From NCBI RefSeq assembly GCF_001542625.1, contig NZ_CP016279.1, forward strand, positions 1,798,001 to 1,862,000: a stretch of DNA of 64,000 nt, in the 5' to 3' direction. Source of the DNA: Streptomyces griseochromogenes (GTDB taxonomy: Bacteria > Actinomycetota > Actinomycetes > Streptomycetales > Streptomycetaceae). How positions within the stretch are numbered: position 1 is the stretch's first letter; the number at the start of each line of letters is the position of its first letter. Positions 18,980 to 59,744 of this stretch are shown here, piece by piece. The position numbers and the translations under genes are program-made. Under the pieces are notes generated by a model. That model saw nothing but the letters and a program-made list of their open reading frames with translations. It did no database searches and was not told where the DNA came from.

Positions 18980-19007
18980 CACATGACAACTGGGCAAAGT
19001 CATGTGC
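18979..19007 (+). terminator. Hairpin at the end of the oligopeptide operon
   Basis: GCACATGAC (18979-18987) pairs with GTCATGTGC (18999-19007) around an 11-nt loop. It begins at the last base of the OppF stop codon. No U-tract follows. Confidence 0.65.
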
Positions 19008-19075
19008 ATGTCCGAGCGGGAGAGTTCAGAGTCGTCCGTGTCCGCATGATCGACACGGGCTCGAAGGGACGACTC

Positions 19076-20467
19076 GTGAAACTCTCCCGTCCGGCACGCT
19101 TAGGAGCCGTCGCCACCGCGGCGGCTTCCTTCTTCGTCGTCGCCGCCTCCTCCGCCCCCACCCCAGGCGCGGCCGGCATCGGCGATTCCTACTTCCCACA
19201 GCTCGGCAACGGCGGCTTCGACGCCCGCCACTACGACCTGGGCATCGCCTACGACCCGGGCAGCGGCCGCCTGGACGGCCGTACGACCCTCACCGCCCGC
19301 GCCACCCAGCACCTCTCCTCGTTCGACCTGGACTTCCAGCAGCTTCGGATCACGAGGGTCGAAGTGAACGGCAGACGCGCCGGATTCACCCGTCACGGCG
19401 ACGAGGTCACCATCACCCCGCGCGACGCGCTCCGCAAGGGCCGGAACTTCACCGTGACCGTCACCTACGGCGGCATACCGAAGCCCCTCGGCGGACCCAT
19501 CGTGTTCGGCTCCAAGTACGGCTGGATGAAGACCGCCGACGGCGTCTTCGTCGGCTGCGAGCCCAACGCCGCCTCCACCTGGTTCCCCTCCAGCGACCAC
19601 CCCTCCGACAAGGCCACCTACGACATCCGGATCAAGGCGCCCAAGGGCCTGACCGGCGTCTCCAACGGCCGGCTCGTGTCGACGTACGACCGGGGCGGCT
19701 CGACGTACACGCACTGGCGGGAGAGCCGGCCGATGGCCACGTATCTCGCCACCGCCACCATCGGGAAGTTCGACGTGCGCACCGGCCGCACCCCGGGCGG
19801 CATCCCGGTCTACGTCGCCGTCGACCCGGCCCTGAAGAACACCAACAAGGTCGACGTGTACGGCGTCACCGCCGCGGCCACCGACTACTGGTCGAAGGTC
19901 TTCGGGCCGTACCCCTTCGAGGAGACCGGCGCGATCGTCGACGATCTGCCCGAGGCCGGGTTCTCCCTGGAGGTGCAGAGCAAGCCCATCTACTCGGGCG
20001 TGCGCAGCGAGACGACCATCGTGCACGAGCTGGCCCACCAGTGGTTCGGCGACTCGGTGAGCGTGGCCCGCTGGAAGGACATCTGGCTCAACGAGGGCTT
20101 CGCCACCTACGCCCAGTGGCTGTGGGCCGAGCACCAGGGCACCCGCACGGCCCACGACTCGTTCCTCGCCGCGTACAACTCCCAGTCCGCCGACGCGGCC
20201 TTCTGGAAGATCAAGGTGGCCGACCCGCAGCGCGACACGATGTTCGCCGACGCCGTCTACGACCGCGGCGCGATGACGCTCCAGATGCTCCGGGAGCGGA
20301 TCGGCGACCGGGCGTTCTTCAAGCTGCTGCCCACATGGACCCGGCTCCACCGGTACGGCAACGCGGACACGTCCGACTTCATCCGCCTCGCCGAGCGGAT
20401 CAGCGGGCAGCAGCTCGACGACCTCTTCGACACCTGGCTGTTCACCACAGGTAAGCCGAGCCTGTAG
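19076..20467 (+). CDS. Secreted M1-family zinc aminopeptidase with a TTA codon
   Basis: A 463-residue exported metallopeptidase. The signal peptide begins VKLSRPARLGAV and ends around APTPGAAG. An N-terminal beta domain (HYDLGIAYDP) precedes the thermolysin-like catalytic domain, with zinc site HELAH (His317, Glu318, His321), third ligand Glu340 in WLNEGFA, and the DRGAMTLQ segment. It is about half the length of PepN, as is usual for secreted Streptomyces versions. GTG 19076 has GAAGGGA upstream; an ATG at 19046 is possible. The ninth codon is TTA (19100-19102), the rare leucine codon read by bldA tRNA, so translation may depend on development. It may produce or degrade peptides handled by the importer upstream. 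Confidence 0.92.
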   Translation: MKLSRPARLGAVATAAASFFVVAASSAPTPGAAGIGDSYFPQLGNGGFDARHYDLGIAYDPGSGRLDGRTTLTARATQHLSSFDLDFQQLRITRVEVNGRRAGFTRHGDEVTITPRDALRKGRNFTVTVTYGGIPKPLGGPIVFGSKYGWMKTADGVFVGCEPNAASTWFPSSDHPSDKATYDIRIKAPKGLTGVSNGRLVSTYDRGGSTYTHWRESRPMATYLATATIGKFDVRTGRTPGGIPVYVAVDPALKNTNKVDVYGVTAAATDYWSKVFGPYPFEETGAIVDDLPEAGFSLEVQSKPIYSGVRSETTIVHELAHQWFGDSVSVARWKDIWLNEGFATYAQWLWAEHQGTRTAHDSFLAAYNSQSADAAFWKIKVADPQRDTMFADAVYDRGAMTLQMLRERIGDRAFFKLLPTWTRLHRYGNADTSDFIRLAERISGQQLDDLFDTWLFTTGKPSL

Positions 20468-33313: not shown

Positions 33314-33339
33314 CCGTGTGGTGGGCAGGTGCTGGGGGT

Positions 33340-33360
33340 CCAGGGGGCGGAGCCCCCTGG
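33340..33360 (+). terminator. Hairpin CCAGGGGGC-GGA-GCCCCCTGG after the SDR gene
   Basis: Nine-bp perfect stem with a 3-nt loop. The surrounding GGGGGTCCAGGGGGCGGAGCC sequence is, from memory, a very common intergenic repeat in Streptomyces and probably works as a terminator. Confidence 0.7.
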
Positions 33361-33382
33361 TGCGGCGGCATACTCTGCCGGG

Positions 33383-34390
33383 GTGAGTGAGAAGAGCGAG
33401 TTCAGGTTCTCCGGAGCCACCGGCGTCGGGTCCATGCCCGGAGGGGACGCGAGGGAGGCCGTCAAGACGGTCACCGGCAGCTTCGAGGACTTTCCGTATC
33501 TGCCCGAGCTCCCCGCCCGAGGCCCCGGCGCCGACATGATCGGCCGTACCGCCGGCATGCTCGTCGAGCTGTACGCGCGCGTGGAGCCCAGCGGCTGGCG
33601 GATCGGGGACCGGCCGGGGCGGGACACCAAGCGGGCCCGGGCCTGGCTGGGCGAGGACCTCGACGCCCTGGAGGAGTTCACCCAGGGCTACGAGGGCGAC
33701 CTCAAGGTGCAGGCGGTCGGACCGTGGACCCTGGCCGCCGCACTGGAGCTGAGGAACGGCGAGGCCGCGCTGTCGGATCCCGGAGCCTGCCGCGACCTCG
33801 CCGCCTCCCTCGGCGAGGGCCTGCGCCTCCACCTCGCCGAGGTACGGCGGCGGATCCCCGGCGCCCGGATCGTCCTCCAGCTCGACGAGCCCTCCCTCAC
33901 CGCCGTACTGCGCGGACAGGTCCGCACCGCCAGCGGCTACCGCACGCATCGGTCCGTGGACCGGCAGATCGTGGAGTCCACCCTGCGGGACGTCATCGGC
34001 GTCCACGACGGCGGACCCGTGGTCGTGCACTCCTGCGCCCCGGACGTCCCCTTCGCCCTGCTGCGACGGGCCGGCGCGGCCGCCGTCTCCTTCGACTTCT
34101 CGCTCCTCACCGAGCGTGACGACGACATCATCGGCGAGGCCGTGGAAGGCGGCACCCGGCTGTTCGCAGGTGTCGTGCCGGGCACGGACGGCCCATTGTC
34201 AGACCCTGCCGGTAGCGTCATGGGTGTCAGGACGCTGTGGCGCAGGCTGGGGCTGCGTCCCGGGCTGCTCGCGGAGGCGGTCACGGTCACCCCGGCGTGC
34301 GGTCTCGCGGGCGCTTCCCCCGCCTACGCGCGCCAGGTGCTCGCCCACTGCGTCCGGGCGGCGAGATCCCTCGCGGACAACCCAGAGTAA
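33383..34390 (+). CDS. MetE-like C-terminal domain protein (methionine synthase family)
   Basis: A 335-residue protein matching the C-terminal, zinc-binding half of cobalamin-independent methionine synthase: GVGSMPGGD, LQLDEPSLTAVL and the zinc ligands HSC (VVVHSCAP) and the Cys of TPACGLAG. It lacks the N-terminal domain of full MetE, so it may transfer methyl groups from a different donor, as in archaeal short forms. Start GTG 33383 lies 6 bases after TACTCT (leaderless). It is 15 bp upstream of ligA and likely co-transcribed with it; the pairing is a chromosomal habit rather than a pathway. Confidence 0.85.
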   Translation: MSEKSEFRFSGATGVGSMPGGDAREAVKTVTGSFEDFPYLPELPARGPGADMIGRTAGMLVELYARVEPSGWRIGDRPGRDTKRARAWLGEDLDALEEFTQGYEGDLKVQAVGPWTLAAALELRNGEAALSDPGACRDLAASLGEGLRLHLAEVRRRIPGARIVLQLDEPSLTAVLRGQVRTASGYRTHRSVDRQIVESTLRDVIGVHDGGPVVVHSCAPDVPFALLRRAGAAAVSFDFSLLTERDDDIIGEAVEGGTRLFAGVVPGTDGPLSDPAGSVMGVRTLWRRLGLRPGLLAEAVTVTPACGLAGASPAYARQVLAHCVRAARSLADNPE

Positions 34391-36652: not shown

Positions 36653-36866
36653 CGGGCGCATTCGGGCAACCGTCGACGACCGCTGCCCGAGGAAGCCTTC
36701 CGCGGCCTACTGTTGAGGTGTGCGCCTGCCGTGCCCAGCTGCGGTTGGGGCATCTCCCTGCTGCTCGCCCAGGGCACGGGGAAGGGTTCTTCGACGCGGA
36801 GCCGCTGATGGTTGTCGGGCATCGGGCCGCGTGGCGTGGGCACCGCCGGCTGTGAGAGGGACGGGA

Positions 36867-39101
36867 ATGGAACCGACCGAGAGCGCCGCCCCGGACGCAC
36901 GGCTGCGCCGCCACGCGGGCGCGTGGCGGGGGATCCGGTGGACCTGGCGGTTCGCCGAGCGCACGGGCACCCGCGCACGCCCCGCCGCACCGGGCGGGGC
37001 GACCGAGGCACACACCCCGATCCCGCTGGCCATCGAGCCCGCTCCCGCACTGTCCGGCACCGACTCCGAACGGCACCTTTCCTGGCCCGCGTTGCCCGCG
37101 GCCGTCGTGGCCGCCGCCGGATTCGCCCTGGGCGCGGGCTTCTACCGCGCCTTCACCGGCCACCACGCGCTCTTCCCGTCCGGCACGGTCGGCTGGTCGC
37201 TGGCCGTGCTCACCGGAATCATCGTCGGCCACCTCGTGATGCTCGGCCGCGCCCGCTGGTGGGGCGGCACCGGTTCCGGCGCCGCCCTCACCCTCGCCGT
37301 CCTGCTGCTGTACGGCTGGGTGCCGGCCTGGATGGTCAGCCTGACCGTCGTCGTCCTGGTCGGCATAGCCAGGCGGCACCGCTGGCGGCAGGGCGTGCTG
37401 CACGGCGCCGTGGACATCCTCGGGATCAGCGTCGGTGCCCTGGTGCTCGGTTGCTTCGGACGTGTACCGAGCGTCGAGGAGCCCTGGCGTCCGGACACCT
37501 GGAGCATCGCCACGGCCCCCGAGGTGGTGCTCGTCGCGGCCGCCTACCTCGCGGTGAGCCGCGGCCTGCTGTGGTACCTGCACGCGCCGCGCGGCGGAGG
37601 ACTGCCCACCGTCGCCCGCACCGCTCTGGTCAGACAAGGCCTGGTCGCCGTCGCGCTGCTCGGCATCGCGCCGCTGGTGTGCGTGGTCGCCGACGCCCAG
37701 CCGGTCCTGCTGCCGCTGTTCGCCATCCCGCTGATCGCCCTCGACTCCACCCTGTGGATGGCCCGGGCCCGTGCCGAGGAGCAGCTGCGCGACCCGCTGA
37801 CCGGACTGCCCAACCGGCAGTGGCTGCTGGAGCGCATCTGGACCGCCCTCGACGACGCCGAGCGGATAGGCGCGCGCACCGCGCTCATGCTGATCGACCT
37901 CGACCGTTTCCGGTCGGTGAACGACACCCTCGGTCATCTCGCCGGTGACCGGCTGCTGTTGCAGATAGCCGACCGGCTCCGGCTCGCCCTGCCGCGCGGC
38001 GCGGAGGCCGCCCGGCTCGGCGGTGACGAGTTCGCCGTCTTACTGCCCGTCGCCGACTCCACCACGTCGGCCACGCGGGTCGCCCGCGGCCTCGTCGCCG
38101 CCCTCAGCTCGCCGCTCGACCTCGACGGGCTCACCCTCGTCCTGGAGGCCAGCGCGGGCGTCGCCGTCTTCCCCGATCACGCCCTGGACGCCGAGGGGCT
38201 GCTGCGGCGGGCGGACGTGGCGATGTACCAGGCGAAGCGGGACCGTACGGGCGTCGAGGTCTACGAGTCCAAGCGGGACTCCAACACCCCGGACCGGCTG
38301 GGTCTGCTGGGTGATCTGCGCCGGGCGCTGGACGCGCACGAGGTGCAGCTGCACTACCAGCCCAAGGTCCGCTTCGACGGCCAGGTCGCCGGCCTGGAGG
38401 CGCTGGTGCGCTGGGTGCATCCCGAGCGCGGGAAGGTGCCGCCGGACGAGTTCATAGCGATCGCCGAGTCCTCGGGGCTGATGCCCCATCTGACGGAGTA
38501 CGTGCTGGAGACCGCGCTCGCGCAGGTCGCCCGCTGGCGGGCCCAGGGGCTGTACGTCCCGGTCGCGGTCAACGTCTCCCCGCGCGATGTCCACACACCC
38601 GGTTTCGCGGGCTCGGTCGCCGCGCGCCTGGCCCGGCACGGAGTTCCCGCGGGCGCGCTCCAGCTGGAGATAACCGAGCATGTGCTGCTGGAGGATCCGC
38701 AGCGGGCCGCCGACACCCTCGCCGGGCTCACCGGGCACGGCGTGAAGATGTCCCTGGACGACTTCGGCACCGGGTACTCCTCCCTGGTGCATCTGCGCCG
38801 GCTGCCGGTGAGCGAGCTGAAGATCGACCGGTCCTTCGTGGCCCGGCTGGCCGTGGACACCGAGGACGCCGAGATCGTGCGCTGCACGGTGGACCTGGCG
38901 CACTCGCTGGGGCTGCTCGTCGTCGCCGAAGGGGTGGAGGACGACGAGACGTGGGAGCGGCTGCGGGATCTCGGCTGTGATGCGGTGCAGGGGTGGCTGG
39001 TCGCCGCGGCGATGCCGCCGGAGGAGACGACGGCGTGGCTGCGGGCGAGGGGGTCCCGGGGCTGGCAACGACCGCGCGCCGCGCTGCCGGCCGCCGAATA
39101 G
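36867..39101 (+). CDS. Membrane GGDEF-EAL protein (RmdB-like c-di-GMP phosphodiesterase) with a TTA codon
   Basis: 744 residues. About six TM helices (residues 75-300) are followed by a GGDEF domain (LGGDEF near 384) and an EAL domain (EALVRW near 510; LEITEHVLLED; DDFGTGYSS near 631; ELKIDRSFV). Both catalytic signatures are intact, and the GGDEF lacks an RxxD inhibitory site (RGAE lies one residue off register). Position next to ligA matches what I recall as rmdB (SCO5495) of S. coelicolor, a phosphodiesterase that affects aerial development; that link is from memory. The codon at 38040-38042, in GDEFAVLL, is TTA, implying dependence on bldA tRNA. Start ATG 36867 has GAGAGGGACGGGA upstream. 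Confidence 0.93.
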   Translation: MEPTESAAPDARLRRHAGAWRGIRWTWRFAERTGTRARPAAPGGATEAHTPIPLAIEPAPALSGTDSERHLSWPALPAAVVAAAGFALGAGFYRAFTGHHALFPSGTVGWSLAVLTGIIVGHLVMLGRARWWGGTGSGAALTLAVLLLYGWVPAWMVSLTVVVLVGIARRHRWRQGVLHGAVDILGISVGALVLGCFGRVPSVEEPWRPDTWSIATAPEVVLVAAAYLAVSRGLLWYLHAPRGGGLPTVARTALVRQGLVAVALLGIAPLVCVVADAQPVLLPLFAIPLIALDSTLWMARARAEEQLRDPLTGLPNRQWLLERIWTALDDAERIGARTALMLIDLDRFRSVNDTLGHLAGDRLLLQIADRLRLALPRGAEAARLGGDEFAVLLPVADSTTSATRVARGLVAALSSPLDLDGLTLVLEASAGVAVFPDHALDAEGLLRRADVAMYQAKRDRTGVEVYESKRDSNTPDRLGLLGDLRRALDAHEVQLHYQPKVRFDGQVAGLEALVRWVHPERGKVPPDEFIAIAESSGLMPHLTEYVLETALAQVARWRAQGLYVPVAVNVSPRDVHTPGFAGSVAARLARHGVPAGALQLEITEHVLLEDPQRAADTLAGLTGHGVKMSLDDFGTGYSSLVHLRRLPVSELKIDRSFVARLAVDTEDAEIVRCTVDLAHSLGLLVVAEGVEDDETWERLRDLGCDAVQGWLVAAAMPPEETTAWLRARGSRGWQRPRAALPAAE

Positions 39102-56438: not shown

Positions 56439-56699
56439 CCGACAGGGGTTGCGCCGCCTACGTTCGGCGCCGGGGATGGATATTTCAGATTTGTGAGGGG
56501 GGCGACGGGCGATGCACGGCCTATGGACGAACGATCCGACGCGGCGGAGCCGCCGACGGCGACCCTGGCGCGCGGCGGCGCGCAGACGCGGCCATCACAC
56601 GAGCCATCACAGCCACCGCCACCGCAGCCCGGCCGGCCGTCGCAGGCATGTCCTCCGGGACCCACGGGACCCGGGAGCGGCACTGACCGGGAGGCCCCG

Positions 56700-59600
56700 G
56701 TGAACGCGCCGCCCTCCGTGACGACCGTGACGAGCGCCCTGGACGGCTTGGTGCGCGCACCGCTCGCGCCGGGGGCTCCGCCGCAGTCCCGTCCGCCGGC
56801 CGTCGGCGCCGGGTCGCGTCTGGTCCAGCAATTGGTCCTGGCCCTCGTCTGCGGGGCCTACGCCATCGGGTCCACCTTCGACTGGGGCTCGGGCCGCCTC
56901 GCGCTGATCATGGGCGACTTCGGGCTGAGCGCCGCGGCGGGCGCCGCCGCCGTCTCCTGCTTCTGCTACGCCCGCAGCCCGCGGGTCCGCTTCCGGCCGG
57001 CCTGGCTGCTGTTCGCGCTCTCCTCGGCGATGGCGGCCCTGGGCAACGCGGTCTGGGGCTGGTACGAGGTCGTGCTGGGGCGGAGCGTGCCGAGCCCGAG
57101 CTACGCCGACCTGTTCTTCCTGTGCTTCGCGCCGCCCGCCATCGTGGGCCTGCTGGTCCTCGCCAAGCGGCCGATGACCCGGGCGGGCTGGATCTGCCTG
57201 GCGCTGGACGCCTGGCTGATCGGCGGCTCCCTGCTCACCCTGTCCTGGAGCCTCGCGCTCGCCCAGGCGGCGCGGTTCGACGGACCGAGCGTGGCGCACA
57301 CCGCGCTGTCGCTGGCCTACCCACTGCTCGACATCGCGCTCGTCAGCATGGTGCTCGCGCTGCACTTCCGCCGCTCCTCGGGCAACCGCACGGCGGTCAA
57401 CACCGCGATCGGCGCGCTCGCCCTCACCGTGATGTGCGACGCGCTGTTCACCTCGCCGCTGCTGCACAGCAGCTACCGCTCCGGGCAGCTGCTGGACGCG
57501 GGCTGGTTCGCCGGGTCGCTGCTGCTCGCCTACGCCCCCTGGGCCGCTCCGTCGCGTCCGGGAGCACGGGAGGCCGACCGGCACGTACCCGACGGGCACA
57601 CGCGCGTGGTGCACGAGCACGTGCCCGGACAGCGCGGCACAGGCCATCCCCACGTGCCCGCACCCGCCCCCGGAGGCGAACACGGCCGCTACCCGGCCGG
57701 CCGGCCGCTCTCCGGCTCCCTCGCCGCGCTCACCCCGTACCTCGCCGCCGCGGTGTGCACCCTGGGCATCCTGTACAACGTCCTCAACGGCCGCAGGCCC
57801 GACCATGTCGTGCTGATCACCGCAGGCGCCGTCGTACTGGCGCTCGTCATGCGCCAGGGCATCATGCTGCTGGACAACATCACCCTCACCCAGGAACTGG
57901 CGCAGAAGGAGAACCACTTCCGCTCCCTGGTGCAGGGCTCCAGCGACGTCATCATGATCGCCGCACCCAACGGCATCCTCCGGTACGTCTCCCCGGCCGC
58001 CGCCGGGGTCTACGGACGGTCCGCCGAGGATCTGGTGGGTACCGAACTGGCCGGTCTCATCCACCCGGAGGACCTGGGCTGTGTGGTGCACGAGGTGCGC
58101 CGGTTCCTCGCCGTCAGCCCGCTGGAGGAGGCCACCACACGCATCGAGTGCCGCTTCCGCTCCGGGGACGGCGGCTGGCTCAACGTCGAGTCCACCGTCA
58201 ACCGGCACCACGGCGGCCTGATCTTCAACAGCCGGGACGTGACCGAACGGGTGCGGCTGCAGGCCCAGTTGCAGCACAACGCCGAGCACGACCCGCTCAC
58301 CGACCTGCCCAACCGCGCGCTGTTCACCCAGCGCGTCCAGCAGGCCCTCTCCGGCCGCCGCGCCACCGACCGGGGCGCCGCCCTGCGCGGCACCGCCGTT
58401 CTCTTCATCGACCTGGACGGCTTCAAGGCCGTCAACGACACGATCGGGCACCAGGCCGGGGACGAACTGCTCGTCCAGGCCGCCCGCAGGCTCCAGGACG
58501 CCGTCCGGCAGGGGGACACCGCCTCCCGGCTCGGCGGCGACGAGTTCGCGGCCCTGATCGTCGGGGACGGCACCCGTGACCGTGCCGCCCGGGAGCGCAA
58601 CATCCTGGAGCTCGCCGACCGTCTCAGAATGACCCTCTCCCAGCCCTACGCCATCGGCGGCAACGATGTCCGGGTCAACGCCTCCATCGGCGTCGCCTTC
58701 GCCGAACAGGGCCTCGGCGCGGGCGAGCTGCTGCGCAACGCCGACCTCGCGATGTACCGCGCGAAATCGGCCGGCAAGGGCCGCGTCGAGCTGTACAAGC
58801 CGCAGATGCAGCAGGACGTCGTACGCAAGGCGGAGCTGGCCACACGGCTGCGCGCCGCGCTGCACGACGGCGAGTTCGCCCTGCTGCACCAGCCCGTGGT
58901 CTGCCTGGAGAAAGGCCGGATCACATCGGTTTCCGCACAGGCGCGCTGGCGCTCCTCCCAGGGGGTGCTCTTCACCCCGGCCGAGTTCCTGCGGGTGGCC
59001 GAGGACGGCGACAAGACCGCGGAGCTGGACCGCTGGATCCTCCAGGAGGCGGTGGAGCAGGCCGCCGAGCGGGCCGCCACCGGGAACGTGGTGCCGGTGG
59101 CCGTGCGGGTGAGCGCCCGCCGGCTGCTGGACCGCTCGATGCCGCTCGGCTCCGTGGAGGCGCTGCTGACCCGGCACGGGCTGCCGCCCGGCGCGTTGGT
59201 CGTGGAGCTGTCCGGCACCGACCCCATGGCCGCGCTGGACGAGCTGGAGCGGCGTCTGACCGCGCTCAGCCGGCTCGGGGTACGGATCGCCCTGGACGGC
59301 TTCGGCAGCGGCTACGCGGCGATCACGGCCCTCAGAAGGCTCCCCGTCGACATCCTGAAGCTCGACCGCAGCCTGGTCGAGGGGGTCGTGGAGTCCGCTC
59401 GGCTGCACAAGATCACCAGCGGGCTGCTGCGGATCGCCGGCGATCTCGGGCTCCAGTCCGTCGCCGAGGGTGTGGACCTGCCGGAACAGGTCGTCGCGCT
59501 GCGCGCGATGGGCTGCACGCACGGGCAGGGCATGGCGTTCGCGGGGCCGCTGGACGAGTACCGGCTGCGCCGGGCGCTCGGATCCGGTCACTATCCCGTG

Positions 59601-59744
59601 CCGCACGCGCCGGCCGAGCCGGCGTTCGCGGGCGGCGCGCGAGAGCCGCAGGCGCGCGTCGGCGTCGAGAGCGGGGGCGCGCGAAGGTCCGAAGAGCTGA
59701 GCGCGGTCGTCGCCTCGACCCCGACCGCGGCGCCCCGGAGGTGA
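56700..59744 (+). CDS. Membrane PAS-GGDEF-EAL protein with degenerate EAL (CdgC-like diguanylate cyclase)
   Basis: 1014 residues. Eight or more TM helices (residues 40-390) are followed by a PAS domain (about 400-520, SSDVIMIAAPNGILRYVSP), a GGDEF domain with LGGDEF near 611 and an I-site RQGD five residues before GGDEF, and an EAL-like domain. In that domain EALxRW reads SAQARW, E-I-T-E reads ELSGTD and D-D-F-G-T-G-Y reads LDGFGSGY, so phosphodiesterase activity is unlikely. I recall that this position, just before ilvB, holds S. coelicolor SCO5511 (cdgC type). Start GTG 56700 has CGGGAGG upstream; the open sequence back to 56493 has weaker GC3 and no ribosome site. Confidence 0.9.
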   Translation: MNAPPSVTTVTSALDGLVRAPLAPGAPPQSRPPAVGAGSRLVQQLVLALVCGAYAIGSTFDWGSGRLALIMGDFGLSAAAGAAAVSCFCYARSPRVRFRPAWLLFALSSAMAALGNAVWGWYEVVLGRSVPSPSYADLFFLCFAPPAIVGLLVLAKRPMTRAGWICLALDAWLIGGSLLTLSWSLALAQAARFDGPSVAHTALSLAYPLLDIALVSMVLALHFRRSSGNRTAVNTAIGALALTVMCDALFTSPLLHSSYRSGQLLDAGWFAGSLLLAYAPWAAPSRPGAREADRHVPDGHTRVVHEHVPGQRGTGHPHVPAPAPGGEHGRYPAGRPLSGSLAALTPYLAAAVCTLGILYNVLNGRRPDHVVLITAGAVVLALVMRQGIMLLDNITLTQELAQKENHFRSLVQGSSDVIMIAAPNGILRYVSPAAAGVYGRSAEDLVGTELAGLIHPEDLGCVVHEVRRFLAVSPLEEATTRIECRFRSGDGGWLNVESTVNRHHGGLIFNSRDVTERVRLQAQLQHNAEHDPLTDLPNRALFTQRVQQALSGRRATDRGAALRGTAVLFIDLDGFKAVNDTIGHQAGDELLVQAARRLQDAVRQGDTASRLGGDEFAALIVGDGTRDRAARERNILELADRLRMTLSQPYAIGGNDVRVNASIGVAFAEQGLGAGELLRNADLAMYRAKSAGKGRVELYKPQMQQDVVRKAELATRLRAALHDGEFALLHQPVVCLEKGRITSVSAQARWRSSQGVLFTPAEFLRVAEDGDKTAELDRWILQEAVEQAAERAATGNVVPVAVRVSARRLLDRSMPLGSVEALLTRHGLPPGALVVELSGTDPMAALDELERRLTALSRLGVRIALDGFGSGYAAITALRRLPVDILKLDRSLVEGVVESARLHKITSGLLRIAGDLGLQSVAEGVDLPEQVVALRAMGCTHGQGMAFAGPLDEYRLRRALGSGHYPVPHAPAEPAFAGGAREPQARVGVESGGARRSEELSAVVASTPTAAPRR

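Follow-up and report, generated by a model that had tools for sequence, protein, structure and literature searches.

A TTA codon as a probable bldA-dependent gate on the c-di-GMP phosphodiesterase RmdB of Streptomyces griseochromogenes, and its gain and loss among relatives

Can a single leucine codon decide when an enzyme of c-di-GMP turnover is made? The question is raised by a locus of Streptomyces griseochromogenes at which the reading frame of an RmdB-like protein contains the codon TTA, and it is of interest because control of a c-di-GMP phosphodiesterase by the bldA tRNA joins two developmental systems. We conclude that the codon, number 392 of the gene, is very probably a bldA-dependent translational gate on the phosphodiesterase RmdB. 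The link between bldA and rmdB is right, yet it was already published in 2020; what is added here are the gains, losses and shifts in position of the TTA among relatives and the contrast with other c-di-GMP genes.

The features of the locus are given in Table 1; positions are those of the window, by which we mean the whole stretch of 64,000 nucleotides that was analysed. The preliminary description had placed the TTA inside the GGDEF domain of an RmdB-like enzyme, and this is where the bases were found, in frame and within the limits of the Pfam domain. The codon directly follows the sequence GGDEFAV (peptide context GGDEFAV-L-LPVA), and the entire EAL domain lies downstream of it. Both Pfam domains score far above the cut-off. 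The ATG at 36867 was chosen as the start; an in-frame GTG is located further upstream at 36720.

Table 1. Features of the rmdB-like gene and its TTA codon in the window.
Feature	Position	Strand	Basis
rmdB-like gene, N-terminal hydrophobic region + GGDEF + EAL, 744 aa	36867..39101	+	open frame
N-terminal hydrophobic region, residues about 76-300	37092..37766	+	hydrophobicity judged by eye
GGDEF domain, residues 308-460, GGDEF motif intact	37788..38246	+	Pfam PF00990, 139.2 bits
TTA (UUA) leucine codon 392 of 744, within GGDEF domain	38040..38042	+	read directly, in frame of 36867-39101
EAL phosphodiesterase domain, residues 483-714, EAL motif intact	38313..39008	+	Pfam PF00563, 244 bits

Judged by its domain order, its ligA-like neighbour and one strong match per genome, the gene is an orthologue of rmdB (SCO5495). 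A single match at E <= 1e-100 was obtained in 148/150 genomes of the genus (own genome counted), and none in 2 of the 150 same-genus genomes searched. In 144 loci of the genus draw the ligA-like neighbour is also present, which we named from its sequence; the names of the genes besides rmdB (ligA, gatA) are all our assignments of this kind. The 80 named relatives, 77 of which are Streptomyces, share 79-93 percent identity with it; S. ghanaensis, S. coelicolor and S. venezuelae are not among these 80 named loci. For the RmdB orthologues SCO5495 and ssfg_02196 the layout 6TM-GGDEF-EAL is listed in a table of PMC7911125, and c-di-GMP phosphodiesterase activity has been reported for RmdB orthologues (PMC7026642, PMC6205966). 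The same activity is predicted for the protein from S. griseochromogenes, both motifs of which are intact.

That such a gene can be under the control of bldA, as the preliminary description supposed, has been demonstrated by experiment for S. ghanaensis. According to Makitrynskyy et al. (2020; PMC7026642), rmdB of this organism (ssfg_02196) contains one TTA, located before the EAL domain. They found hardly any translation of an RmdB-GusA fusion when bldA was mutated, whereas the fusion with TTA changed to CTG was unaffected, and the CTG form could be detected at an earlier time in the wild type. Their report thus covers the need for bldA in translation via the TTA, the phosphodiesterase activity and the effect on c-di-GMP, which increased twofold upon deletion of rmdB (PMC7026642); effects of rmdB on development have also been reported by others. 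The genes of the two organisms are alike in encoding orthologous membrane-GGDEF-EAL phosphodiesterases and in having one TTA before the EAL domain. They differ in that the need for bldA has been measured for the S. ghanaensis gene, whereas gating in our strain is deduced from the homology, the codon and the presence of a gene for tRNA-Leu(UAA); the TTA described for S. ghanaensis would likewise be identical with codon 392.

The gate could operate as follows. The rmdB mRNA would contain one UUA, to be decoded by the bldA tRNA-Leu(UAA), and as long as the mature tRNA is scarce the ribosomes would stop at this codon, arrest being the presumed nature of the block. A stop at codon 392 would leave the EAL domain and the remainder of the GGDEF domain unmade, c-di-GMP would stay high, and BldD and the RsiG-sigmaWhiG complex would be held in the state that blocks sporulation. 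When the bldA tRNA accumulates, full-length RmdB could be formed and c-di-GMP lowered. The GGDEF domain of RmdB from S. venezuelae was reported in 2026 to bind sigmaWhiG and to hinder RsiG (PMC13232838). In a gene with TTA392, both the EAL activity and a complete sigmaWhiG-binding domain may therefore have to await the supply of bldA tRNA.

The genome of S. griseochromogenes yielded 75 tRNA matches above the Rfam cut-off, of which 12 are longer than 80 nt and were all scanned with ARAGORN. Among these 12 is one tRNA-Leu with the anticodon TAA and a cloverleaf fold at C1:9932284-9932367, which from its anticodon we take to be bldA. A second Leu(TAA) was not found in the part of the shorter tRNA matches that was scanned, nor among eight weak ones, and the tRNA-Leu(UAA) gene is apparently present in a single copy. 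No tRNA-Leu(CAA) was seen at a convincing score among the tRNA matches scanned, a weak candidate being located at G000:C1 4542795-4542877. If tRNA-Leu(CAA) were truly absent, UUG codons would also rely on the UAA tRNA; it is more likely that the search missed it.

How widespread is the codon? TTA was found at codon 392 in 51/153 readable orthologues of the same genus and in 2/55 of other genera of the family (55 examined of 65 genomes with a match); L196, a partial gene in which codon 392 is unreadable, was dropped. Because 51/153 orthologues of the genus have TTA at the homologous codon, an assembly error at 38040-38042 is unlikely. In the genus draw, from which loci L197-L199, L201, L205 and L221 were left out as repeats of genomes already drawn, a TTA is present in 75/147 readable rmdB genes, 49/147 having it at codon 392 and 26/147 elsewhere without TTA392, and is absent from 72/147; these counts refer to the aligned region and leave out any TTA in the variable N-terminus ahead of it. 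The number of TTA codons per TTA-bearing gene is one in 73/75, two in one gene and three in one gene. The gene with three, from Streptomyces locus L178, has all of them in the membrane region and a TTG at codon 392. In the 80 named loci, a set selected for closeness, TTA392 is present in 43 and a TTA elsewhere in 5 others. The proposal of bldA control via the TTA, supported by the experiment in S. ghanaensis, does not therefore extend to the whole genus: about half of the sampled Streptomyces have the codon and half have not, so that neither bldA-gating nor its absence can be transferred from one species to another. The groups with and without TTA in rmdB constitute a natural experiment on the purpose of the gate.

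Two published surveys are relevant here. Chandra and Chater (2013; PMC4255298, Table 2) listed a TTA for SCO5495 (rmdB) in 7/14 Streptomyces and in the Kitasatospora setae orthologue. Their list concerns the same gene, and 7/14 is close to our 75/147; it differs in counting a TTA anywhere in the gene, with codon 392 not separated. Among the TTA codons of conserved position in a survey of 213 species (PMC10327506) is one of a diguanylate phosphodiesterase gene (S. coelicolor FQ762_RS28405) at nt 1171-1173, which is codon 391, one off codon 392 in our numbering. This is probably the same site. Half or more of the species possessing the gene have it according to that survey, as compared with 49/147 here, a difference that sampling or orthologue grouping may explain. 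In the same survey the average number of TTA-bearing ORFs per Streptomyces genome is 177 (PMC10327506).

Against the background of other genes the TTA content of rmdB is high. In the window, an in-frame TTA is present in 2/40 gene-like ORFs (called heuristically by codon-position GC). In the genus draw we counted 77 TTA per 15,521 Leu codons of rmdB, and in the same loci none in ligA (144 loci, 8,723 Leu codons), none in gatA (127 loci, 5,324 Leu codons) and none in ORF 33329-34390 (114 loci, 4,188 Leu codons); loci covering more than 80 percent of the gene numbered 114, 110 and 110, respectively. For 77/15,521 versus 0/18,235 in the three nearby genes the Fisher test gives 9e-27 with relatedness ignored, and most of our p values likewise count related genomes as independent. 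The contrast is also seen with enzymes of the same kind. Four other GGDEF(-EAL) genes of the genome have a TTA in 0/30, 0/30, 2/30 and 0/30 matching genomes and rmdB in 16/31 (2/120 copies versus 16/31; Fisher 2e-11), these draws comprising 31 genomes with one lacking a match each time and some matches spanning only part of the protein. In S. griseochromogenes itself six further matching genes are free of TTA over the stretch that was examined. With 75/147 in rmdB, none in the nearby genes and 2/120 in the c-di-GMP genes, a TTA as mere background is ruled out.

The history of the codon was reconstructed on a tree of 207 rmdB sequences from which codon 392 was excluded and L239, with an extracted frame of 21 nt, was dropped. 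By parsimony TTA392 was gained at the base of a Streptomyces lineage of 64 tips, 51 of which keep it, with 11 losses; the base node of the lineage has a low support of 0.117. A separate, second gain is common to two members of another genus (L224 and L227). Each of these two genes has, in addition to the TTA at codon 392, a second TTA elsewhere. The tree of rmdB plus ligA again gave a group of 64 tips, 51 with TTA, and 10 losses, and its bootstraps gave exactly two gains of TTA392 in 14/20 and three to seven in the remaining six. Most simply, TTA392 would have arisen on two occasions, in a single Streptomyces lineage and in a second genus. When the gains of minor Leu codons (TTG, CTA, CTT or TTA) are ranked by the tips that retain them, the one following the 51-tip gain of TTA392 comprises 8 tips. 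Within the lineage 0.345 of the pairs differ at codon 392, whereas for 69 invariant Leu columns the mean is 0.313, and at position 365 a TTG, acquired via several gains, is found in 19/64 tips. Because codon 392 is no more uniform than the average Leu codon and because of TTG365, the unusual feature is only the persistence of a TTA; the uniformity of codon 392 is ordinary for its lineage. Another TTA is present in 2/13 lineage tips without TTA392 and in 0/51 with it (Fisher 0.039, from few cases).

The 26 genes with a TTA elsewhere add 14 sites to codon 392, all within aligned positions 76 to 340. The 147 genes together have 28 TTA codons at positions other than 392, of which 27 are upstream of it, at least 26 of them at aligned positions 76-289, so that the N-terminal hydrophobic region holds most of the alternative codons; the lone one downstream belongs to a gene with a further TTA upstream and is situated in a C-terminal extension, and in the 147 genes of the genus there is no TTA in the aligned part past residue 468. 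On the 207-tip tree 34/40 gains of TTA occurred upstream of residue 469, versus 22/39 for CTA (p 0.007), 94/169 for CTT (p 0.0005) and 217/357 for TTG (p 0.003); five of the six downstream TTA gains are in other genera. Because TTA gains shift in position and concentrate upstream of residue 469, what matters would, most simply, be that some TTA precedes the EAL domain, and the pattern fits, we infer, selection favouring a TTA somewhere in front of the catalytic domain and not one exact codon. Counting against such selection are the 72/147 genes without TTA, the replacement TTA in just 2/13 and the bias of TTA toward the front of genes, which is described as a general streptomycete trend (PMC4255298). 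We regard it as possible, at somewhat less than even chances, that rmdB is the chosen entry point of bldA among the c-di-GMP enzymes, the gate being kept while its codon turns over like binding sites in promoters. In the literature passages searched no published account of shifting TTA positions in rmdB was found.

Could synonymous drift in a gene under weak constraint have left the codon behind as a neutral remnant, without any regulatory role? The 10-11 losses of TTA392 inside its own lineage, the many orthologues lacking a TTA (72/147) and a variation of codon 392 about equal to that of other Leu codons of the lineage speak for drift. CTA, however, which is the second Leu codon ending in A, is only one third as frequent in the rmdB genes (25 versus 77) and has no front bias, being spread over three regions as 9, 4 and 12, and from the frequencies of TTG and CTA only 0.78 TTA would be expected where 77 were observed. 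Moreover, gains of other minor Leu codons each persist in 8 tips at most, and in S. ghanaensis the change of TTA to CTG was reported to give an earlier, bldA-independent RmdB, an effect measured in that organism. Drift is therefore a very unlikely explanation.

Still less probable is that a slow codon helps RmdB to fold or to enter the membrane during translation, with no part played by bldA as a developmental signal. The codon does follow the membrane region and lies within the GGDEF domain, and a single site is retained across a large lineage; in relatives, however, TTA is found at 15 aligned positions from 76 to 392, which suits a presence anywhere upstream better than a pause at a single structural site, and translation of the CTG version was reported to be normal in the bldA mutant of S. 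ghanaensis (PMC7026642). A pause at one fixed place was rejected, since the TTA positions shift among relatives. On the opposite strand, an antisense open frame (38040-39068, minus) terminates exactly at 38040 with the TAA that mirrors the TTA, and one might ask whether the TTA matters there. A TAA on the other strand, however, accompanies every in-frame TTA, and the window is rich in long frames on both strands; we rejected an antisense role, which we consider extremely improbable. A bldA-dependent gate on RmdB remains the reading that we prefer.

The best known TTA-gated developmental gene is adpA. It resembles rmdB in having one UUA codon and bldA-dependent translation (PMC4255298), but its TTA is reported for all streptomycetes analysed there (PMC4255298), whereas in rmdB a TTA is present in about half and at shifting positions.

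About 17 kb downstream of rmdB, the window contains a second GGDEF-EAL gene (56493-59744, +; Pfam), which has a PAS domain and is CdgC-like; it has no TTA in the stretch examined, and 2/30 of its relatives have one. The other TTA-bearing gene-like ORF of the window (18983-20467, +), with a Pfam match to peptidase family M1, has its TTA at codon 40 (19100-19102).
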